Of a stretch of 44,161 nt of DNA, positions 341 to 44,127 are shown piece after piece (positions within the stretch are counted from its first letter, which is position 1; each line of letters starts with the position of its first letter). The DNA is from Bacteroidota bacterium. GTDB taxonomy: Bacteria > Bacteroidota > Bacteroidia > Chitinophagales > Chitinophagaceae. A program made the position numbers and the translations under genes. The notes below the pieces were generated by a model. The model searched no databases. It worked only from the letters and a program-made list of their open reading frames with translations, and was not told the origin of the DNA. The stretch is from assembly GCA_018268135.1 (NCBI GenBank), contig JAFDXD010000094.1:1-44161 (forward strand), written 5' to 3'.

Positions 341-1354
341 ATGCCACAGTTAAAAAACCGTCAGTTTCTGGATTTTGAAAAACCAATTAAAGACCTGTAT
401 GACCAAATAGATCAGTTAAAGGCCACAGAAGAAAAAACCAAAACAGACATGAGTGGGGCTATAGCCTCTCTTGAGCAAAAAGTGGTAGAAACCAAAAAAT
501 CTCTTACAGAGACCCTGACACCCTGGCAAAAAGTACAATTGAGCCGGCATCCCGACAGGCCCTATACTTTAAAATATATCGAAAACATGACCACCAATTT
601 TATTGAATTGCATGGCGACCGCAATGTGAAAGATGATATGGCCATGGTAGGTGGGTTTGCACAACTGGATGGTAAAACGGTAATGATAATAGGGCAACAA
701 AAAGGCCATAATACTAAAACAAGGCAATTAAGAAATTTTGGAATGGCAAATCCTGAGGGCTATAGAAAAGCGCTTAGGCTGATGCGCCTGGCAGAAAAAT
801 TTAATAAACCAATCATTACAATGATTGATACCCCGGGCGCATACCCCGGCTTAGAAGCAGAAGAAAGGGGGCAGGGAGAAGCCATTGCCAGAAATATTTA
901 TGAAATGCTAAGCCTAAAAGTACCGGTAATATGTGTGATAATTGGCGAAGGCGCAAGCGGTGGCGCTTTGGGTATAGGTGTAGGCGATAAAGTTGTAATG
1001 CTGGAAAATACATGGTACACAGTAATATCTCCGGAAAATTGTAGTACAATATTATGGAGAAGCTGGGCACAAAAAGAAATTGCAGCAGAGCAATTAAAAC
1101 TAACGGGTACGGATATGCTAAAATTTGGACTAGTGGACGATGTGGTGCCAGAACCAATGGGAGGCGCACATTGGGATTATGTACAGGCAGCTCAACTTTT
1201 AAAAGAATATCTTATTCCTACCATTGCTTCTTTAGAGCAAATGGGTGTACAGGAAAGAATTGATAAGCGAATTGAAAAATTTGGTAAGATGGGCTTTTGG
1301 GAAGAAACTAACCAAACCCCGGAAACAATTCATCATAGCGGAGGAGAAGAATAG
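341..1354 (+). CDS. accA: Acetyl-CoA carboxylase carboxyltransferase subunit alpha
   Basis: AccA pairs with AccD to move the carboxyl group from biotin-BCCP to acetyl-CoA, giving malonyl-CoA, the first committed step of fatty acid synthesis in the cytoplasm. The 337-residue product matches the usual family length. It has a coiled N-terminal helix pair (about 15-60), the conserved [10 protein letters not shown] segment (68-77), IDTPGAYPG (162-170), and the oxyanion-forming [12 protein letters not shown] (202-213) of the crotonase-like carboxyltransferase fold. The ATG start fits the family N-terminus ([16 protein letters not shown]). No accD or accBC is in the window, so the complex is encoded at dispersed loci. 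The next gene begins 26 bases downstream, and co-transcription is likely. Confidence 0.97.
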
Positions 1355-1380
1355 CAAAGAAAAAATTAAAGAAAATAAGT

Positions 1381-2349
1381 ATGCTAAAAGTAGGCGTATT
1401 AGGTGTTGGGCATCTCGGAAAATTTCATTTAAATAATTGGAAAGAAATTGACAATATTTCGATAACGGGTTTTTTTGACCCGGATGATTCCATTGCGGCA
1501 GCAGTAATTGAAAAATATGGTATCAGCAGGTATTCTACTGCAGAAGAATTGATAGATGCCTGCGATGCAGTAGATATTGTAGCTCCAACCATTTATCATT
1601 TTGATTTATGCTCTCTTGCCCTTAGAAAAGGTCGGCACGTATTTGTAGAGAAGCCACTGGCCAATACAATGGAAGAAGCTAAAACATTGGTGAAACTTGC
1701 TAAGGAGTCCAATGTTAAGTTTCAGGTGGGGCATGTAGAAAGATTTAATCCGGCTTTTTTATCGCTAAAAAATTACAGTCTCCAGCCAATGTTTATAGAA
1801 GTACACAGGCTGGCACAGTTTAACCCCCGAGGTACGGATGTAAGCGTGATATTAGATTTAATGATACATGATATTGATATCATTTTAAGCCTGGTGAAAA
1901 GTAATGTGAATCACATCTCTGCTAATGGCGTAGCGGTAATGAGCGATACTCCGGATATTGCTAACGTAAGAATTGAATTTGATAATGGATGTGTGGCCAA
2001 CCTTACCAGTAGCCGTATCTCTATGAAAAAAATGAGGAAAATGAGGCTCTTTCAAAAAGATGCTTACATCGGAATTGATTTTCTTGATAAAAAAACTGAA
2101 ATCATCAAGCTAAATACACCCGGCGATAAAAATGTGTTTACATTTGATATTGAAACCAACCATGGTAAAAAAACTATTGCAATTGCAAGCCCTGGTGTAG
2201 TTGAAGTAAATGCGATTAAAATGGAGTTGGAAAATTTTAGAGATGCCATTTTAAATAACACGGAAACGCCTGTTACAGTATTGGATGGGTTTGGAGCAAT
2301 GGAAATTGCTCATAAAATATTGGAAAAAATAAATTCTTCTCATCATTAA
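1381..2349 (+). CDS. Gfo/Idh/MocA family NAD(P)-dependent oxidoreductase
   Basis: This is a predicted sugar or inositol-type dehydrogenase. A Rossmann fold at the N-terminus shows VGVLGVGHLGKFH (residues 4-16), and the family signature EKP lies at 90-92 (VFVEKPLANT). The substrate domain begins near VGHVERFNP (117-125). The 322-residue length is normal. The substrate cannot be told from sequence. Neighbours are accA upstream and a sugar-phosphate transferase 21 bases downstream, so a role in making a nucleotide-sugar or polysaccharide precursor is plausible but is inference from context. The related Bacteroidota proteins are mostly annotated only by family. Confidence 0.9.
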   Translation: MLKVGVLGVGHLGKFHLNNWKEIDNISITGFFDPDDSIAAAVIEKYGISRYSTAEELIDACDAVDIVAPTIYHFDLCSLALRKGRHVFVEKPLANTMEEAKTLVKLAKESNVKFQVGHVERFNPAFLSLKNYSLQPMFIEVHRLAQFNPRGTDVSVILDLMIHDIDIILSLVKSNVNHISANGVAVMSDTPDIANVRIEFDNGCVANLTSSRISMKKMRKMRLFQKDAYIGIDFLDKKTEIIKLNTPGDKNVFTFDIETNHGKKTIAIASPGVVEVNAIKMELENFRDAILNNTETPVTVLDGFGAMEIAHKILEKINSSHH

Positions 2350-2370
2350 AATATTATTGGCACTTGCTAT

Positions 2371-3780
2371 GTGCTTTTATTTGTGAGGCAGCCACGCATA
2401 CATATTAGCCTTTATATTATTGCTGATTTATTAATTGCCATCATTACATGGCTTTGCTTTTATTACCTCCGTACTAAAATTTATGATTTTGCATTTTACA
2501 TTCCTCCGGGCTTTTATCTCGGTCTGCTGTTGTACACCCTCGGATGGATGACACTGCATTTTATAACAGGTACCTATCACTCACTTTATCAAAAGTCAAG
2601 ATGGGGCGAAATATTAAAAACCTTTACAGTTACACTGATTGGTTGCATTTTTCTTTTATTCTTTTTTATTCTGAAAAACCCGCTAACTGATAATAGAAGG
2701 TATTATGTAGAATTTTTATGCCTGTTAATACCAATGTTTGTTTTAACCGTAACAGTTAGATTGATTTTTTTAAAAATTGTAAAAAATCAACTGCTGAATA
2801 AAACTGTATTTTATAATGTAATATTTATTGGCTCATCGCAAAAATTGTTACAATTTGATGCAATAATATGCAGGCCCAATGACGCATCAGGCTACAATAT
2901 TGTTGGTTTCATCAATACCAACGGCGTTACAGAAAAACCCTTACCTGCAGGCATAAAACAGTTTCAGCAAATTGATAACCTGCCCACTTTAATTAAAGAA
3001 AATAATATTGAAGAAATTATTATTGCGGTAGAAAAGAGTGAAAGGAATCTCATCAATAAAATATTGCAAATACTGAGCGATAAACAGGTGAATATTAAAA
3101 TTACACCTGATACACTTGATATAGTAAGCGGTGCTTTGCAAACCAATAATGTGATGGGGTTGCCTCTTATAGATATCCACTCTGGCCTGCTTCCTATGTG
3201 GCAGCAAAATATAAAACGATTTATAGATTTATTGATAGCCTGCATTTCTATTGTATTGTTATCTCCATTGTTTTTGTATGCCTTACTTCGGGTAAAGTTT
3301 TCATCTGCAGGCCCTTTATTTTTTAAGCAGGAAAGAATTGGGTACAAAGGCAAACCATTTATCATGTACAAACTAAGATCGATGTACATTGGGGCAGAAG
3401 AAAATGGGCCACAACTTAGTTCTGATAATGATGAACGTATAACCAAATGGGGAAAAGTAATGCGTAAATGGAGACTAGACGAGTTGCCCCAATTATGGAA
3501 TATTATTAAAGGAGAAATGAGCCTTGTAGGCCCCAGGCCCGAAAGAAAATTTTACGTAGATCAACTTATAGCTTTACAGCCTGAGTATAAATATTTATTT
3601 AAAGTAAAACCAGGCCTTACAAGCTGGGGCATGGTACAGTTTGGCTATGCTTCTTCTATTAATGAAATGCTGGAAAGAATGCCATTTGATTTACTTTATG
3701 TAGAAAATGTATCTCTTTCTCTCGATTTTAAAATAATGTTTCATACTATCAGGATAATTTTTGCAGGGAAAGGAAAATAA
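2371..3780 (+). CDS. Polyprenyl-phosphate sugar phosphotransferase (exopolysaccharide initiation)
   Basis: The protein is predicted to move a sugar-1-phosphate from a nucleotide sugar to undecaprenyl phosphate at the inner membrane, starting an O-unit or exopolysaccharide. It has four N-terminal membrane helices (about 9-32, 47-68, 86-102, 113-136), a soluble CoA-binding-like domain (about 145-260), a further hydrophobic helix (284-305), and a C-terminal bacterial sugar transferase domain. Visible motifs are KQERIGYKGKPF (319-330), DELPQLWN (370-377), VGPRPE (386-391) and KPGLTSWG (413-420). The start shown is GTG 2371; a second GTG at 2383 is equally possible. The sugar is not predictable. 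No other polysaccharide genes follow, so it is not at the head of a visible cluster. Confidence 0.93.
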   Translation: MLLFVRQPRIHISLYIIADLLIAIITWLCFYYLRTKIYDFAFYIPPGFYLGLLLYTLGWMTLHFITGTYHSLYQKSRWGEILKTFTVTLIGCIFLLFFFILKNPLTDNRRYYVEFLCLLIPMFVLTVTVRLIFLKIVKNQLLNKTVFYNVIFIGSSQKLLQFDAIICRPNDASGYNIVGFINTNGVTEKPLPAGIKQFQQIDNLPTLIKENNIEEIIIAVEKSERNLINKILQILSDKQVNIKITPDTLDIVSGALQTNNVMGLPLIDIHSGLLPMWQQNIKRFIDLLIACISIVLLSPLFLYALLRVKFSSAGPLFFKQERIGYKGKPFIMYKLRSMYIGAEENGPQLSSDNDERITKWGKVMRKWRLDELPQLWNIIKGEMSLVGPRPERKFYVDQLIALQPEYKYLFKVKPGLTSWGMVQFGYASSINEMLERMPFDLLYVENVSLSLDFKIMFHTIRIIFAGKGK

Positions 3781-3835: not shown

Positions 3836-6574
3836 TTGAGAAAAATAATACTGCTTTTTATTTTATCTTTTTGCTTCTCAGTTGGCATCTGCCAGCCAGG
3901 GGCTTATTGGCAACAATCTTTAGAATATAATATTAAAGTATCACTCAATGATGTAGATAATACATTGGATGCCGTAATAAATATTCAATACCAAAATAAT
4001 TCTCCTGATACCTTGCATTTTATTTGGATGCATCTTTGGCCAAATGCTTATAAAAATGATCGTACTGCATTTAGCGACCAGTTGCTTGAAAATGGAAGAA
4101 CTGATTTTTATTTTAGTGAAGAAAAGGATAGAGGATATATCAACAGGCTAAATTTTAAAGTAGATAGTGTGCCTGCATTACTCGAAGACCATCCAGTACA
4201 CCAGGATATAGTAAAATTAATTTTACCAAAGCCATTGGCACCCGGCAATAGTATTCAAGTAGAAACAGCTTTTCATGAAAAAATTCCTTTTAACTTTTCA
4301 AGGGGAGGCTTTACAGGGAACGCTTATCAAATTACTCAATGGTATCCCAAGCCTGCTGTATATGATGCAAATGGATGGCACGAAATGGCTTATCTTGATC
4401 AGGGAGAATCGTATAACGAATTTGGAAACTACAAGGTAACTATAACTGTGCCCGAAAATTATAAAGTAGCTGCTACAGGCAACCTGCTGAGCGAAACCAA
4501 AGTTGGCCATGCCAATTCTTTTCAATTTTACCAGGCCAATGTAACCGACTTTGCCTGGTTTGCCGATAAAAATATTATTGAGCAGCAAGACAGCCTGAAA
4601 CTAACAGATAAGGATATACGAATTAAAATATATCATTCTCCCGGAGAGAATGCAATGTGGGATGAAACTTTAAAAGAAGTTAAAAGCAGTATTAAAACAT
4701 ATTGCAGCCTGGTGGGTGAATACCCTTACGATGTAATAAGTGTGCTGGAAAATAAAAGCAATAGCACGGCAACTATGAATTATCCTACCCTGGTACTTGT
4801 AAAACCGGGAGGCTCTGCATGGAGCCGCCGGCACGAAATATACCGGGAGGTAGGGCAACAATGGTTTAGCAATGTGCTAGCTTCAAATGCAAGAGTAAAC
4901 CCATGGATGAGTGAAGGGATGAATGGCTATTACTTCAAAAGATTACTATCAGAAAATGATAAAAATGCAGCAAGCGTTTCGCCAGGCGATAAAGACAATT
5001 TTATAAAAAAGCGATCGCCACTGCTACCCAATATAGTGAATTTGCAAACTGCCCTGGTTGAAAAAAAAGATCAACCCATCAATACAGGTGCAGAATTTTT
5101 TTCAAAACTTAATGCCCACCTGATAGCTGAAGATAAGGCTGCATTATGGATGGACTCTCTTGAAAAGAAAATGGGAACGCCTGCTTTTGATAAAGCTATG
5201 CAAGCTTATTACCTGCAATGGAAATTTAAACATCCCAATCCTCAGGATTTTAAAACCATTGCTGAAAAAGTAAGCGAGCAAAATTTAGACGAACAATTTT
5301 TATTGCTTGGTAAAAAGGGTGAGTTGGGTAAACCAGCACATAAAGATTTAAAGCTTGCATCATTTTTTAATTTACGGGAAACTAATAAGTACAATTACAT
5401 TTCAGTTGCTCCGGCAGTAGGCTATAATATTTACGACAAACTGATGTTGGGAATGCTTGTACATAATTACCAGCTTCCGCCAAATAAATTTCAGTTTATT
5501 GTGGCGCCTTTGTTTGCAACTGGTTCTCATACTTTGAATGGAATGGGTAGAATGTCTTACAGTATTTACCCCGGAAAAAATGCCCAAAAATTAGAAATAG
5601 CGATTGCTGCAGAAAAATTTACGGCGGCAATGTATAAAGACTCAACCGGCAAAAACAATTATATGCCCTTTAGTAAAATAGCTCCTTCTATTAAATACAT
5701 TTTTGCCAATGCAAACCCAAGAAGCAGTATTACTAAGTATTTACAATGGAAAACTTTTTTTATTAATGAAACATCTCTGTTGTTTACAACCGATACAGTA
5801 CAGCAAATTGATATTATTTCTTACCCGGTTGCCCATCGGTATGTAAATCAGTTGCGCTTTGTATTTGAAAACACAAGAACCTTGTATCCATACAATGCCT
5901 GCATACAAATGGAGCAGGGAAAAGATTTTGCCAGGGCTGCATTTACCGGAAATTATTATTTTAATTATCCCAAAGGGGGCGGTTTAAATGTGAGGGTATT
6001 TGGTGGTAAATTCTTTTATTTAGGTGATAAAACATTTGTGAAGCAATTTGAAACAGATGCTTATCATTTGAATATGAGTGGGCCAAAAGGTTATGAAGAT
6101 TATACCTATAGTAATTATTTTATTGGCCGTAATGAATTTGATGGCCTTGCATCCCAACAATTAATGCTAAGAGATGGTGCTTTTAAAGTACATACGGATT
6201 TATTAAATAATAAAATTGGGAAAACAGATGACTGGCTTACTGCCGTAAATTTTACCAGTGATATTCCCAGGCAAATAAACCCATTGTCGTTGCTTCCGGT
6301 AAAAATACCGATTAAAATATTTGCAGACTTTGGTACTTATGCAGAAGCCTGGAAATTAAATGCTCCTACAGGCAAATTATTATATGATGCAGGCCTGCAA
6401 GTATCTTTATTTAGCAATGTATTGAACATTTATGTGCCCATATTGTACAGTAAAGTGTATGATAATTATTTTAAATCGGTAATTACAGAAAAAAGATTTG
6501 TAAAAAATATTTCTTTCAGTATTGATGTACAAAATTTTTCGGTGAATACATTATTAAAAAAATTAGGCTTGTAA
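3836..6574 (+). CDS. Secreted M1-family peptidase-like protein with degenerate zinc site (pseudo-enzyme)
   Basis: The 912-residue protein starts at TTG, which yields a typical signal peptide (cleavage near ICQ-PG, residues 19-21). Residues about 20-490 follow M1 aminopeptidase order, including the PKPAVYD region and a C-terminal helical stretch (YYLQWKFKHPNPQDF). The zinc motif HExxH-x18-E is destroyed: the equivalent segment reads REVGQQWF, with R337 and Q341 replacing both histidines. The motif glutamate E338 and the third ligand E360 (WMSEGM) remain. The exopeptidase GAMEN-like glutamate is N315 (ATMNYPTL). Residues about 500-912 alternate polar and hydrophobic, like an outer-membrane beta-barrel, but this part is unassigned. 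It is probably a non-catalytic envelope protein. The downstream acyltransferase follows after 2 bases. Confidence 0.85.
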   Translation: MRKIILLFILSFCFSVGICQPGAYWQQSLEYNIKVSLNDVDNTLDAVINIQYQNNSPDTLHFIWMHLWPNAYKNDRTAFSDQLLENGRTDFYFSEEKDRGYINRLNFKVDSVPALLEDHPVHQDIVKLILPKPLAPGNSIQVETAFHEKIPFNFSRGGFTGNAYQITQWYPKPAVYDANGWHEMAYLDQGESYNEFGNYKVTITVPENYKVAATGNLLSETKVGHANSFQFYQANVTDFAWFADKNIIEQQDSLKLTDKDIRIKIYHSPGENAMWDETLKEVKSSIKTYCSLVGEYPYDVISVLENKSNSTATMNYPTLVLVKPGGSAWSRRHEIYREVGQQWFSNVLASNARVNPWMSEGMNGYYFKRLLSENDKNAASVSPGDKDNFIKKRSPLLPNIVNLQTALVEKKDQPINTGAEFFSKLNAHLIAEDKAALWMDSLEKKMGTPAFDKAMQAYYLQWKFKHPNPQDFKTIAEKVSEQNLDEQFLLLGKKGELGKPAHKDLKLASFFNLRETNKYNYISVAPAVGYNIYDKLMLGMLVHNYQLPPNKFQFIVAPLFATGSHTLNGMGRMSYSIYPGKNAQKLEIAIAAEKFTAAMYKDSTGKNNYMPFSKIAPSIKYIFANANPRSSITKYLQWKTFFINETSLLFTTDTVQQIDIISYPVAHRYVNQLRFVFENTRTLYPYNACIQMEQGKDFARAAFTGNYYFNYPKGGGLNVRVFGGKFFYLGDKTFVKQFETDAYHLNMSGPKGYEDYTYSNYFIGRNEFDGLASQQLMLRDGAFKVHTDLLNNKIGKTDDWLTAVNFTSDIPRQINPLSLLPVKIPIKIFADFGTYAEAWKLNAPTGKLLYDAGLQVSLFSNVLNIYVPILYSKVYDNYFKSVITEKRFVKNISFSIDVQNFSVNTLLKKLGL

Positions 6575-11614: not shown

Positions 11615-11867
11615 TTATGCAAAAATTTGTTTGGTCGGCAAGATAATAACAAAGCTTTATGTAGCAATAGAGTGGGAGGCACTTTTAGGAAAGGCTTAAC
11701 GGTAGTAATGTTAATGGCGCCAATTGGGTAAAATATTAAAGCCTGCCGGAGAAATATTGCTTGCCAACATTTATTTGCTTTGAACAATTTATTGAATAGG
11801 GGTGCCGAAAAATAATAGAAAGTGCCTTTTTATATGTTGCTATGAAAGGCAAGAGCCGGGCCTAATA

Positions 11868-11929
11868 GCCCTGATAGGAGCTACTACCGCCCCCGGCCTT
11901 TGCGGGGGAGTAGTAGCGGATAGCAGGAC
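11868..11929. ncRNA. Structured RNA candidate resembling the Bacteroidota Flavo-1 motif
   Basis: The 317-base gap between two divergent genes contains a nested, GC-rich structure. An outer stem CCTG (11870-11873) pairs with CAGG (11924-11927). A symmetric 6x6 internal loop follows, ATAGGA facing GGATAG. Next is an 8-bp stem, GCTACTAC (11880-11887) with GTAGTAGC (11910-11917). After a small bulge, CCCCCG pairs with CGGGGG around a seven-base loop. Conserved purine-rich internal loops between strong stems are the layout I recall for Flavo-1 RNAs, but I could not run a covariance search. As drawn it reads on the plus strand, where the loop sequences match my recollection, though orientation is not proven. 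Function unknown. Confidence 0.6.
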
Positions 11930-12021
11930 CCATGCTGATAAAAACTTATGCCGGGCTTCTTAAAAAAAATATTTTTTATTGCCTTAAAATTTTATTTGCG
12001 AATTTGCAAATAAAAAGCGGA

Positions 12022-38843: not shown

Positions 38844-38865
38844 AATGTATATAAATTTTATATTG

Positions 38866-40242
38866 ATGAAACAAATTGCCGGCATTGCTTTAATTATCTT
38901 AATGATAGGCTGCAACCAGCAAAAGCAAAGTAAAAACACAGATAATACTAAAATGGAAAACACAAGCTTTGAAACGGTAAATTGGGCACATGCCAGTAAT
39001 GTTTACGAAGTAAACCTAAGGCAATACACACAGGCCGGCACTTTTAATGCCTTTGCACAAGAGTTGCCAAGGCTAAAACAAATGGGGGTACAAACCCTGT
39101 GGTTTATGCCCATTACACCCATAGCGCAGTTAAATAAAAAAGGAACCCTGGGCAGCCCTTATGCCTGTAGTGATTATACAGCCACCAATCCCGAGTTTGG
39201 CTCGATTGATGATTTTAAATCATTGGTAAAAAAAGCACATGACCTGGGCTTTAAAGTTATTATAGACTGGGTGGCCAATCATACAGGATGGGATCATGTA
39301 TGGACAAAATCTCACCCGGAATATTACAAAAAAGACAGTACCGGCAATTTTAAAATAGCAAGTGGTATGGATGATATCATAGAATTGGATTATTCAAACC
39401 CGGCTTTGAGAAAAGCAATGATTGATGCTATGGAATTTTGGGTAAAGCAATGCGATATCGACGGATTTAGGTGCGACCTTGCTTTTTGGGTAGAGCTTGA
39501 TTTTTGGAAAGAAGCAAGAACAGCTTTGGAAAAAACTAAAAAATTATTTTGGCTGGGAGAGTTTGATGCCCTTGATAAACCAGAGTACATGCAGGTATTT
39601 GATGCATCCTATACCTGGACCTGGATGCATCAAACAGAGCAGTTTTACAAAGGAAATATTGGCCTTGATTCTTTAAGAAATATTTTAGAGCGATATGATA
39701 CTGCCGGAGGGATTAATAAAATAAAATTGTGGTTTACTACCAATCACGATGAAAATAGTTGGAATGGTACAGAGTATGAAAAATATGGAGATATGGCTAA
39801 AGCGCTTGCTGTATTTAGCTTTACATGGGATGGCATTCCGTTAATATACAGCGGCCAGGAGCTTCCCAATACAAAAAGGTTGCAATTTTTTGAGAAAGAT
39901 GTAATAGCCTGGAATGGCGAATATAAGCTTGCTGATTTTTACAATAGGCTTTTAGAAGTGAGAGAAAAAAATCCTGCATTAAGAACAGGCGATGCAAGTG
40001 CTAAAACAATTTTATTGCATACAGACCAACCTAACAGCATATTAGCATACCTGCGTAAAAATGGCGATAAAGAAGTGCTGGTACTCTTAAACCTAAGTAA
40101 AAATGATCTAACATTTACGCTACAGGAAAACCTGCTGAAAGATAATTATAAAAAAGTTTTTGATGACCAAACAGTACAGAGCTTAAATGGAAAAACAACT
40201 TTTGAGTTGAAGCCCTGGGGGTATGAAGTTTGGGAAAAGTAA
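38866..40242 (+). CDS. GH13 alpha-amylase-family lipoprotein
   Basis: The protein has about 458 residues from ATG 38866. It has a lipoprotein signal (lipobox LMIGC, C16) and a GH13 barrel. The conserved regions are DWVANH (134-139), GFRCD with nucleophile D204, acid/base E232 in FWLGEFDA, and NHD with D295. It acts outside the cytoplasm on alpha-glucans or maltodextrins. The exact specificity is unknown, and no sus-type transporter genes are near. A small C-terminal beta domain follows the barrel. Downstream the sequence changes to the repeat island. Confidence 0.92.
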   Translation: MKQIAGIALIILMIGCNQQKQSKNTDNTKMENTSFETVNWAHASNVYEVNLRQYTQAGTFNAFAQELPRLKQMGVQTLWFMPITPIAQLNKKGTLGSPYACSDYTATNPEFGSIDDFKSLVKKAHDLGFKVIIDWVANHTGWDHVWTKSHPEYYKKDSTGNFKIASGMDDIIELDYSNPALRKAMIDAMEFWVKQCDIDGFRCDLAFWVELDFWKEARTALEKTKKLFWLGEFDALDKPEYMQVFDASYTWTWMHQTEQFYKGNIGLDSLRNILERYDTAGGINKIKLWFTTNHDENSWNGTEYEKYGDMAKALAVFSFTWDGIPLIYSGQELPNTKRLQFFEKDVIAWNGEYKLADFYNRLLEVREKNPALRTGDASAKTILLHTDQPNSILAYLRKNGDKEVLVLLNLSKNDLTFTLQENLLKDNYKKVFDDQTVQSLNGKTTFELKPWGYEVWEK

Positions 40243-40328
40243 GCCATGGGTTGAAAGGTTAGCCATTATTTTTTAATACAATAATGAATAATTTATTCAT
40301 GTCTGCGAGAGTGGGGGGTACAGGAATT
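40243..40328. other. Spacer between the GH13 gene and repeat copy A
   Basis: AT-rich stretch with no gene, hairpin terminator or promoter that I can support. A short G-run (GTGGGGGGTA) lies at 40311-40320 just before the repeat. Confidence 0.5.
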
Positions 40329-40638
40329 CCACGCCGTTGTTGGTATGCGGGGCAGGTAAAGTGGGTTAGCGTACCAACAACATAGCGTGGGCTAAGTAAT
40401 AAATAAAAGTAAAAAATTATAACCCTTATAAAAACGTAACGTTGCTTTTAGCCGTTGCTGTTGTTTCGCTATATTCATTGCCGATAATGAAATAGCATAT
40501 ATTCATCGTTGGGGAAAAACACACAACGATGGAGAGGGATGGAGGGAAGATTGACTAGACCACCAACATCGGAAAATGCACGGATACGCTCTGTACAAAA
40601 GCCAAGCTGCATATCTGCGCCATTGGGAGAAGTGCAGG
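40329..40638 (+). repeat. Structured dispersed repeat, copy A (hairpin plus core)
   Basis: This copy starts with an imperfect inverted repeat of 62 bases (40329-40390). Outer arms CCACGC/GCGTGG enclose inner arms GTTGTTGGTATGC/GCGTACCAACAAC (one G-T pair), and the 20-base loop contains GGGCAGGTAA. A conserved middle follows (TTATAACC, GTTGCTG, GTTTCGCT, AATAGCATATATTCATC). The core is next (ACACACAACGATGG, GATACGCTCTG, GCATATCTGCGCCATTGGG). Within it CATCGTTG (40504-40511) pairs with CAACGATG (40524-40531). The same units recur at 41862-42162, and the core at 43690-43820. It ends about 80 bases before the nuclease gene. Confidence 0.85.
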
Positions 40639-40718
40639 AACTGGAAATACTCACCAACCAACATACAAATCATCACTCGTTTGGGTAAATTAAATTTACA
40701 AATCCTATTTTTATAATT

Positions 40719-41759
40719 ATGGCAAAGCAACAGATTACGAAAGGCTACAAGGAATTTTTTACAGAAATAAAGGAGAAGATATACCAGGCCCAATACGAGG
40801 CGATGAAGCAGGTAAATAAAGACCTGATTAAACTGTATTGGGAAATAGGCAGGAGTATTGTGGAGAAACAGCAAAAACACAAATGGGGAAAGTCTGTGGT
40901 TGAAAACTTATCAGCTGATTTACAAAAAGAGTTTGCAGGGGTGAACGGATTATCGGCAGACAATCTTTGGCGGATGCGCAAATTTTACCTGAATTATAAA
41001 GGTCAGGAAAAACTTGCACCAATGGTGCAACAAATTGGCTGGAGCCATAATGTGGTAATCATGGAGAAGTGCAAAGATTTTTTGGAACGAGAGTTCTATA
41101 TAAAAATGGTTATCAAATACGGGTGGACGAAAAATGTCCTGGTACACCAAGTGGAAGGCAAGAGCTATGAAAAGTTTTTGTTGGGGCAAACGAATTTTGA
41201 TAAGACTTTACCGGAAAAATATAAACATCAGGCAAAGCTGGCCGTAAAAGATGAATACAGTTTTGAGTTTTTAGAATTGGGGGAAGAATACAGCGAACGG
41301 GAATTAGAGTTGGCCATTATGCGGAATATGCGAAAGTTTTTAATGGAAATGGGTGGCGATTTTACATTTGTTGCCAATCAATACAAGCTATCACTGGAAG
41401 AAGATTTTTACATTGATATATTGCTTTATCATCGCAGGTTAAAATCATTGGTAGCGATAGAGTTAAAAACCGGAAAATTTAAAGCAGCATATGCAGGCAC
41501 GATGAATTTATATTTAGCCGTACTGAATGATACAGTAAAACTGGAAGATGAAAACCCATCCATTGGAATTATTGTTTGTAAAGAAAAAAGCCGTACTACG
41601 GTTGAATATGCCTTGAAAGAAATTAATCTGCCGATTGGCGTAACAACCTACAAAGTAACCCCCACTCTGCCGAGAGATTATAAAAAATATTTGCCCTCAC
41701 CTGAAACTATCATCAACAGCCTGGAGGGTATGTTTAATGATTTATCAGAGACAGAGTAA
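40719..41759 (+). CDS. DUF1016/YhcG-family PD-(D/E)XK nuclease
   Basis: The 346-residue protein has an N-terminal DUF1016 helical domain (about 10-150, with LYWEIGRSIVEKQ, LSADNLWRMRKFY and IGWSHNVVIM). The C-terminal nuclease-like domain (about 180-320) has D233 in FYIDILLYH and E248-L-K250 in VAIELKTGKF, the D and E-x-K of the PD-(D/E)XK fold. Such genes are often multi-copy and patchily distributed in Bacteroidota. Their role is unsettled, with links suggested to DNA processing or restriction. Here the gene is bracketed by two copies of a structured repeat, and nothing else is in the unit. It may use the weak promoter elements TTTG and TATTTTTA just upstream. Confidence 0.9.
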   Translation: MAKQQITKGYKEFFTEIKEKIYQAQYEAMKQVNKDLIKLYWEIGRSIVEKQQKHKWGKSVVENLSADLQKEFAGVNGLSADNLWRMRKFYLNYKGQEKLAPMVQQIGWSHNVVIMEKCKDFLEREFYIKMVIKYGWTKNVLVHQVEGKSYEKFLLGQTNFDKTLPEKYKHQAKLAVKDEYSFEFLELGEEYSERELELAIMRNMRKFLMEMGGDFTFVANQYKLSLEEDFYIDILLYHRRLKSLVAIELKTGKFKAAYAGTMNLYLAVLNDTVKLEDENPSIGIIVCKEKSRTTVEYALKEINLPIGVTTYKVTPTLPRDYKKYLPSPETIINSLEGMFNDLSETE

Positions 41760-41808
41760 AGCCTGAGAGTGTCAATAAAGGTTAGCAACAAAGTAAAGCC
41801 AGATAAGT

Positions 41809-41871
41809 CAACGCCGCAACACGGCTTACACCGCCAAAATATAGAGGCGTAGGCGGTGTTGCTCGCCGTTG
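41809..41871 (+). repeat. Inverted repeat just upstream of repeat copy B
   Basis: CAACG..GCAACAC (41809-41822) pairs with GTGTTGC..CGTTG (41856-41871). A nested alternative, ACACCGCC (41828-41835) with GGCGGTGT (41852-41859), uses part of the same sequence. Its 3' arm shares four bases with the next hairpin. It lies 50 bases past the nuclease stop and could act as a terminator-like or regulatory fold, but has no T-run. Confidence 0.6.
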
Positions 41872-42162
41872 TTGGTATGCAGGGCAGGTAAGGCAGCGTT
41901 AGCGTACCAACAACATAGCGTGGACTAAGCATTAAAAAATTATAACCTTACAAATCTGTATCGTTTTTTTATCCGTTGCTGCTGTTTCGCTACTTTTTCC
42001 ACCGATAAATAAATAGCATATATTCATCCTTGTTGAAAAACACACAACGATGGCGAGGGATGGTTAGGAAATTGATGCGAAGGCAAACATCAGCAAAAAG
42101 ACACAGATCCACTCTGCACAAAAGTTAAGTTACATATCTGCGCCAGTGGGAGTAAGTGGGAG
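41862..42162 (+). repeat. Structured dispersed repeat, copy B (hairpin plus core)
   Basis: Same order and orientation as copy A. Inner arms GTTGTTGGTATGC (41868-41880) and GCGTACCAACAAC (41902-41914) enclose a 21-base loop containing GGGCAGGTAA. Then come CATAGCGTGG, AATTATAACCTTA, the middle block, ACACACAACGATGGCGAGG and CATATCTGCGCC. By eye it is mostly identical to copy A, with scattered substitutions and small gaps. The outer CCACGC arm of copy A is not kept. Differences fall without a three-base pattern, so the repeat is unlikely to be coding. Confidence 0.85.
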
Positions 42163-43689: not shown

Positions 43690-43820
43690 TTATTCTTCGT
43701 TTGTTAAACACACAACGATGGCGAGGATTGCCGAAAAGATTTATGCGAAGCCCAACATCAGCAAAAAGTCACAGATACGCTCTGCTCAAAAGTCAAGTTG
43801 CATATCTGCGCCATTGGGAA
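43690..43820 (+). repeat. Structured dispersed repeat, copy C (core only)
   Basis: It matches the core of copies A and B in the same orientation: ACACACAACGATGGCGAGG, ATGCGAAGCCCAACATCAGC, AAAAAGTCACAGATACGC and GCATATCTGCGCCATTGGG. The upstream inverted repeat and middle block are missing, so the family seems modular. It begins 64 bases after the CoA-transferase stop. Confidence 0.85.
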
Positions 43821-44127
43821 AAATATATTTAAATATATAATAAATATTTTAATTATCTTTTTATGCCTTGAAAAAGTATTTTCTATTACATCAACAGAAT
43901 TTTTGTAAAAGGTAATTACATTGATGGTTTACAGAATAAAGAATAACCAGACAGAATTAAAATGAAACCTAAAAATTATTGATTGCCCTCGCCATGTTTT
44001 ATTGCCCTCGAAACAAATACCAACACCAACATTTGATTTGCCCCATTTCAATTCCACCCATTTTCTATTACCTTAAAATCTTACCTGTTAGGTATGAAGA
44101 TGAAATACTTTTTTTACAAAAAATAAA
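43821..44127. other. Gene-free AT-rich stretch at the right end
   Basis: I see no supported gene in this roughly 300-base stretch. It contains long A/T runs and a twofold direct repeat ATTGCCCTCG (43982-43991 and 44001-44010). Confidence 0.5.

Follow-up and report, generated by a model that had tools for sequence, protein, structure and literature searches.

A DUF1016/YhcG nuclease gene between direct copies of a chimeric REP element in a Chitinophagaceae genome

Introduction

REP/BIME/REPIN elements and their RAYT (TnpA_REP) transposases, including subclass 2.6, are described in passages of PMC6006769 as imperfect palindromes of about 50 nt that form inverted pairs and are found both at RAYT genes and elsewhere. 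The same passages assign to subclass 2.6 (group 5) the motifs NH[LIV]H, WQ, YIH[QN]NP and SS, place it mostly in Bacteroidetes, and report atypical secondary structures flanking its genes. The repeats studied here shared the general properties of these elements but differed in having loops of about 20 nt and no GTAG head, in joining two REP families in one 300-bp element, and in bracketing single accessory genes with direct copies.

Integron gene cassettes are single genes with attC sites. They resemble the present arrangement, where single toxin-antitoxin or defence genes lay between imperfect palindromes of the same orientation; however, the palindromes here belonged to RAYTs and the pairs were dispersed over many contigs. 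Restriction-modification genes reportedly insert with long target duplication, as is said to have been found by Kobayashi and colleagues. A similar picture is given by locus-specific direct repeats at nuclease genes, as at several DUF1016 genes elsewhere, whereas the repeat flanking the gene described here was a dispersed REP element. MITE-type mosaics (TIMEs) are likewise short non-autonomous elements flanking other DNA, but they are Tn3-derived (PMC4133298), while the ends of our element were REPs. REP elements are a known kind, and direct brackets around accessory genes appear to be a different pattern. In the literature, as judged by titles and the openings of abstracts, no description of toxin-antitoxin genes bracketed by REPs or MITEs was recognised, a level at which absence is unproven.

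Structure of the locus

The window, which is the whole stretch of DNA analysed (44,161 bp), was one entire contig (G000:C160) of a 3.27-Mb draft genome in 166 contigs (Bacteroidota bacterium, Chitinophagaceae; GCA_018268135.1, JAFDXD010000094.1). Its relevant features were as follows.

38845-40242, plus strand: alpha-amylase family gene, upstream neighbour (domain search)
about 40329-40632, plus strand: repeat copy A, chimeric REP/BIME-like, both ends being the 5' foot of a REP
40324-40388, plus strand: hairpin REP of A (GCC-GTTGTTGGTATGC ... GCGTACCAACAAC); covariance model R2, 80.4 bits
40389-40569, plus strand: middle block of A, partly shared with B, with C and with one further locus (C38)
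40570-40628, minus strand: core REP of A, inverted relative to the hairpin; model R1, 69.9 bits
40719-41759, plus strand: DUF1016/YhcG PD-(D/E)XK gene, 346 aa; Pfam YhcG_C 8e-55, DUF1016_N 2e-44
about 41861-42155, plus strand: repeat copy B, oriented as A, 78% identical to it
41856-41921, plus strand: hairpin REP of B; R2, 75.5 bits
42093-42151, minus strand: core REP of B; R1, 58 bits
42339-43625, plus strand: acetyl-CoA hydrolase/transferase gene, downstream neighbour, between copies B and C
43691-43822, plus strand: partial copy C (end of the middle block and core), with its core REP at 43761-43819 on the minus strand

The sequence-only reading had placed a nuclease gene between two repeats of about 300 bp in the same orientation. 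This was confirmed by blastn, where A and B matched far above chance (E 1.9e-62, 78% identity over about 300 bp), and the homology started at the 5' foot of the hairpin and stopped at the outer foot of the core. The proposed build of hairpin, middle block and core was recovered in both copies with models R2 and R1, and there was no transposase ORF between A and B, as had also been stated. The hairpin spacing, previously given as 1539 bases, was 1532 bp from start to start. The count of two copies was right for A and B but overlooked the partial copy C behind the next gene, which was 77% identical to A and 82% identical to B.

Both Pfam domains of the nuclease scored above their cut-offs, placing the protein in the DUF1016/YhcG family. 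Residues D233, E248 and K250 were conserved, and we take them to be the PD-(D/E)XK active site. The gene matched the PADLOC phage-defence candidate PDC-S02 and can be considered a candidate defence gene with a predicted anti-phage or nuclease role. Elsewhere in the window, positions 11863-11934 matched the Flavo-1 RNA with a score of 44.9 (gathering threshold 42).

Hairpin and core palindromes

When oriented alike, the hairpin and the core followed one plan: a 5' foot, an arm of about 13 nt ending in TATGC, a loop of about 20 nt, and GCGTA with the second arm. The 5' foot was mostly CGCC in the hairpin and often CTAC or CCAC in the core. The repeat had been called structured, and imperfect palindromes were indeed kept across copies, with 95.9% of the hairpin cells (17 sequences) and 96.8% of the core cells (31 sequences) paired. 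However, covariation was almost nil (one double change in the hairpin and none in the core), and the window sequences folded without significant excess over shuffles (z of -0.7, -1.2, +0.7 and +0.1, where the hairpin stretches lacked 3 nt of the 3' arm). No Rfam family matched the repeat at the gathering threshold. The hairpin was also considered as an integron attC site and rejected, its arms reading GTT..AAC, the reverse of what we take to be the attC order.

Within this genome, the core had 27 copies by BLAST and 53 by the model (E up to 0.1), and the hairpin reached a convincing score in A and B only; in one relative, up to 24 hairpin matches were found (E up to 0.1). The sequences were REPs in the sense of short imperfect palindromes that are multicopy and mostly intergenic, the intergenic placing being judged from the viewed loci and uncounted. 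A conserved GTAG tetranucleotide was absent from the 5' foot of both the hairpin and the core REPs. This argues against canonical GTAG REPs but not against RAYT REPs in general, since subclass 2.6 is described with atypical structures.

The repeats as REPs of two RAYT families

In relatives, the hairpin occurred in inverted pairs around IS200-like transposase genes (Pfam Y1_Tnp; NCBIfam REP_Tyr_transpos). Seven RAYT genes in six genomes were enclosed in this way (G126, G422 twice, G406, G442, G401 and G311), for example in G126:C21 (hairpin 108421 plus, RAYT 108560-109075, hairpin 109178 minus) and in G422:C1 (1295911 plus, 1296074-1296583, 1296687 minus). The hairpin intervals of 351-3000 bp that held a RAYT gene were convergent in 7/9 cases, with the 16 RAYT genes of this pair analysis chosen because their contigs carry hairpins. 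In G400:C2, a RAYT gene was likewise enclosed by two cores (39167 plus, 39301-39759, 39807 minus), and in G246 and G383 the core lay on one side of such genes. Scores against REP_Tyr_transpos (cut-off 80) were 83 bits for L169 and 80 bits for L172 among the hairpin-linked proteins, and 96-100 bits for the core-linked L141, L049 and L039. The core-linked (second) RAYT was about 30% identical to the hairpin-linked (first) one. Since each palindrome flanked RAYT genes in relatives, the hairpin is a REP of one RAYT family and the core a REP of another.

By eye, the RAYT of L169 contained NHIH, WQ, YIHQNP and SS, which are the motifs tabulated for subclass 2.6, while NHMH in L172 and NHFH in L174 departed from that table. 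RAYT matches were present in 74/93 genomes of the genus, most of them not beside the hairpin of the window type. In the draft genome studied here no intact cognate RAYT was found, and one could be missing from the assembly; there was a related RAYT fragment with an internal stop in C49 and a fragment at the start of contig C162. Two full-length Y1_Tnp genes of this genome (L029, L030) were rejected as the source of the repeats because the palindromes surrounding them differ. At L029, the Y1_Tnp gene lay amid a palindrome of another kind (CAACGGAAT..ATTCCGTTG) at 779-911 and 1915-1988.

Element borders

Inverted REP pairs within 220 bp had their tags outward in 15/16 cases, which is the polarity of a REPtron minus its gene. 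Borders were compared with 500-bp flanks for 50 core copies, the three weakest-looking of the 53 being set aside as weak matches. Of the 624 aligned pairs, 525 offered flanking sequence of at least 150 bp; two of the 14 linked pairs (C135 and C38) were without a qualifying alignment. Homology continued for more than 20 bp beyond the 5' foot in 6/525 aligned pairs and beyond the 3' side in 199/525. Both A and B consisted of two inverted REPs and a linker, with the hairpin on the plus strand, the core on the minus strand and the tags outward, as in a BIME or REPIN. Because of this outward polarity and the sharp ends at the 5' feet, A and B are read as chimeric non-autonomous BIME/REPIN-like elements made of a hairpin REP, a middle block and a core REP.

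A core subfamily (type-2) formed an element of 166-168 bp with terminal inverted repeats, as measured in 10/13 copies, the other three being left out for want of a recognisable 3' end. There was no convincing target-site duplication at these ten type-2 elements, two of which gave p values of 0.03 and 0.047. The segment from A to B was also considered as a composite transposon with the two copies as its ends. It did not qualify as one, with DUF1016 alone and no transposase inside and no repeat in its flanks above shuffles (p 0.21). Other arrangements of the repeats included a tandem REP cluster with 247-bp tandem copies (L333) and two copies in C102, at 1724 and 2365, that had 14 bp in common beyond the element end (by eye).

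Relation of the repeat to DUF1016

The 53 core matches (E up to 0.1) in this genome stood against a single DUF1016 gene. Within the genus, 42/93 genomes had a DUF1016 match, the present genome included. In a scan of 52 further DUF1016 loci of the genus, the hairpin model matched at none and the core model gave one weak match (E 0.016); the hairpin model also matched at 0/35 Bacteroidota DUF1016 loci picked by title from a set of 80. Thus, the repeat is not tied to DUF1016. Two of the three explanations offered from the sequence alone were not supported by these counts, namely a repeat family recognised or processed by the nuclease and a mobile unit using the nuclease; the repeats were associated with RAYT genes instead. 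The outcome that the sequence-only reading had named as its refutation, repeats dispersed over the genome and not enriched near DUF1016, was the one observed.

Elsewhere, direct repeats unrelated to the one in the window flanked DUF1016 genes in 16/126 cases, compared to 4/334 other ORFs of the same loci (pooled Fisher p 8e-7, with controls unmatched for intergenic context). By set, the counts were 10/75 vs 3/226 in the first set and 6/51 vs 1/108 in the genus, with flank lengths of 450 bp and 600 bp, respectively. The testable genes were 75 from 80 loci and 51 from 56 loci (4 duplicates dropped). Inverted flanking repeats were seen in 3/126 vs 1/334 (1/75 vs 1/226 and 2/51 vs 0/108), and most DUF1016 genes were without flanking repeats. 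At L296, a DUF1016 gene lay between duplicated neighbouring sequence (2414-2616 and 4014-4217; 204 bp, 91%), at L133 between duplicated pieces of 41 and 47 bp (2783-2870 and 4154-4340; 94-98%), and at L076 inside a 199-bp duplication (1-199 and 1292-1490; 98%). The coding nature of some of these repeats (L296, L133) was judged by eye. By analogy, the three duplications resemble insertion with long target duplication. At L099 (CP058707.1), direct palindromes of about 127 bp, 69% identical (TAAC ... CGCAAAGCC ... GTTA), enclosed a DUF1016 gene at 2786-2911 and 3984-4110; we take them to be attC-like in look.

The yhcG gene of E. coli was tried as an empty-site model and rejected as uninformative, with a match in 4417/5426 genomes and no repeat from the flank test. 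Coverage of this locus (L305 5828-6955) was at least 80% in 3310 of the 4417 matching genomes, and some, including a BL21(DE3) record, matched the first 406 bases alone. On plasmids, DUF1016 was present in 465/72,556 records.

Direct REP brackets and their cargo

The orientation of neighbouring REPs was analysed with the 53 core matches and the hairpin matches with E up to 0.001, under stricter filters; two matches that overlapped another one on the opposite strand were left out. Neighbours 351-3000 bp apart were direct in 24/29 pairs, compared to 12/24 of those more than 3 kb apart (RAYT intervals aside, the window pair counted once). The p values of this bias (binomial 0.0005, Fisher 0.018) were optimistic, given that the 351-3000 bin was set post hoc, the copies were related and some loci contributed several pairs. 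Direct pairs were also frequent close up, namely 19/35 within 220 bp, as in tandem clusters, and 2/2 at 221-350 bp.

There were 13 direct intervals in this genome, two of which (C135 and the second C52 interval) were without a scanned ORF. Six of the 11 scanned intervals held toxin-antitoxin or defence-candidate genes:

C22: HigBA
C103: ParE
C97: RelE
C38 and C52: PIN (one REP of the C38 bracket was weak, E 0.005)
window: DUF1016

Of the other five intervals, three contained the acetyl-CoA hydrolase, YitT and a DUF6252/Riean_0653 protein, respectively, and two held proteins that matched nothing. Among neighbouring ORFs that were not enclosed, 1/20 was toxin-antitoxin-like, in a control that set intervals against ORFs and whose 20 ORFs were chosen from 35 with small ones favoured. 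In relatives of the genus, 2/11 hairpin brackets held such genes, namely DUF4160 with DUF2442 (G406) and MORN with Imm35 (G126). In these counts, DUF6364 and DUF4160/DUF2442 were presumed to be toxin-antitoxin-like.

In G126:C12 (L168 1736-4386), three 300-bp REP composites, 92.7-98% identical, surrounded the MORN and Imm35 pair and a 130-aa gene in two intervals. At L038 (241-1344), a RhuM-family gene (PADLOC PDC-S05) lay beside two direct hairpin REPs.

Empty sites

Comparison with genomes lacking the bracketed gene, as proposed by the sequence-only reading, found no empty site at the window but did find one at C92 and a weaker one at C22. None of the 29 relatives' acetyl-CoA hydrolase loci showed the amylase or DUF1016 within 1.5 kb. 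At C92, the flanking genes (a phosphorylase and a divergent 424-aa gene) had aligned ends within 340 bp in 24/29 relatives; they were 821 bp apart in one relative, and the partner was not within reach in 4. The C92 cargo gene was within 1.5 kb in 0/29 relatives, and neither the core nor the hairpin model matched at their sites. This is strong evidence that, compared to the relatives, the bracket at C92 is inserted DNA. The whole bracket (L164, around 1966 and 3169) lay between 28-bp direct repeats with 25/28 identical positions, a score reached by 0/500 shuffles.

At C22, the deoxyhypusine synthase gene and a 486-aa gene were within 110 bp of each other in 4/29 relatives and more widely spaced in 3, while in 22 at least one of the two was out of reach. 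None of the 29 relatives had HigBA at the equivalent locus, and the C22 bracket is probably an insertion relative to them as well. One of the three wider gaps, beside the deoxyhypusine synthase gene (L339 1336-1378), carried a hairpin REP of the relative's own at the equivalent of the HigBA bracket. The idea of a compact, self-contained unit of repeat and gene thus had some support, from the orientation bias and the empty sites elsewhere, but for REP pairs generally.

Discussion

We consider it probable (about 0.65) that recombination at REP elements brought in accessory genes, including DUF1016. We infer that this recombination was homologous and that the window bracket formed as the other brackets did. 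In this reading, A and B are same-orientation copies of one non-autonomous element, composed of the hairpin REP of one RAYT family and the core REP of a second, and the spread of such REPs would be the work of RAYT (HUH single-strand) transposases. A segment carrying a gene together with a REP element would recombine with a resident REP element. The outcome would be a gene bracketed by direct copies, with DUF1016 as passive cargo, and several toxin-antitoxin genes of this genome seem to have been gained likewise. Of the three explanations offered earlier, recombination at existing repeats was the one that fitted best. This acquisition at REPs is weakened by the fact that C22 rests on 4/29 relatives and that only 2/11 brackets of the relatives held such cargo. 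Moreover, the window yielded no empty site, as none of the 29 relatives had the amylase or DUF1016 within 1.5 kb of the acetyl-CoA hydrolase. A and B need not be a recent pair, given that they differed by 22% and that B resembled C slightly more than it resembled A.

Duplication of the repeat before arrival of the gene yields an identical structure. A local duplication of the REP composite would have produced A and B, and DUF1016 would have come in between them independently, by a route of its own or by some unrelated one. Tandem clusters such as L333 and the 14 bp shared past the element end by the C102 copies fit this course, as do the unrelated direct repeats found elsewhere around DUF1016 genes, whose insertion may itself create duplications. 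We nevertheless regard it as unlikely: it would have to be repeated separately for every bracketed toxin-antitoxin gene, and nothing but the REP composite was duplicated around the DUF1016 gene of the window. That the nuclease itself recognises this repeat and mobilises the unit in which it lies is barely credible. The conserved PD-(D/E)XK-type residues and the position of the gene between two copies would suit it, but the hairpin was missing from all 52 and 35 other DUF1016 loci, and this genome had 53 core matches without a second DUF1016 gene.

Another route to the same brackets would be cassettes made by RAYTs. In this case, the RAYT would cut one strand at two direct REPs, and a single-strand circle of one REP and the gene would insert at another REP. 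According to parts of PMC8266576, IS200/IS605 enzymes use guide sequences 5' of the palindrome, and the RAYT studied there cuts close to the REP, on its 5' or 3' side. Such guides and such cutting fit the cassettes, and a published analogue is the model of BIME formation outlined in parts of PMC2817692, where a RAYT cuts two direct top-strand REPs. The direct bias at gene-length spacing, gone beyond 3 kb, the sharp element end at the 5' foot of the REP and the lack of convincing target-site duplication at the ten type-2 elements are also consistent with it. On the other hand, RAYT genes themselves lay between inverted REPs, direct pairs were common at close range too, the 28-bp direct repeat around the C92 bracket is not predicted, and homologous recombination leaves an identical end product. 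We judge this route to be quite unlikely. If true, the cassettes (toxin-antitoxin, immunity and DUF1016 genes) would represent integron-like shuffling in which HUH chemistry takes the place of a tyrosine recombinase.

The present results remove a misleading lead, namely that DUF1016 acts on these repeats. The accessory toxin-antitoxin and defence-candidate genes found in direct REP brackets suggest that genes may be gained with REPs as docking sites, and RAYT-dependent gene capture becomes a testable idea.
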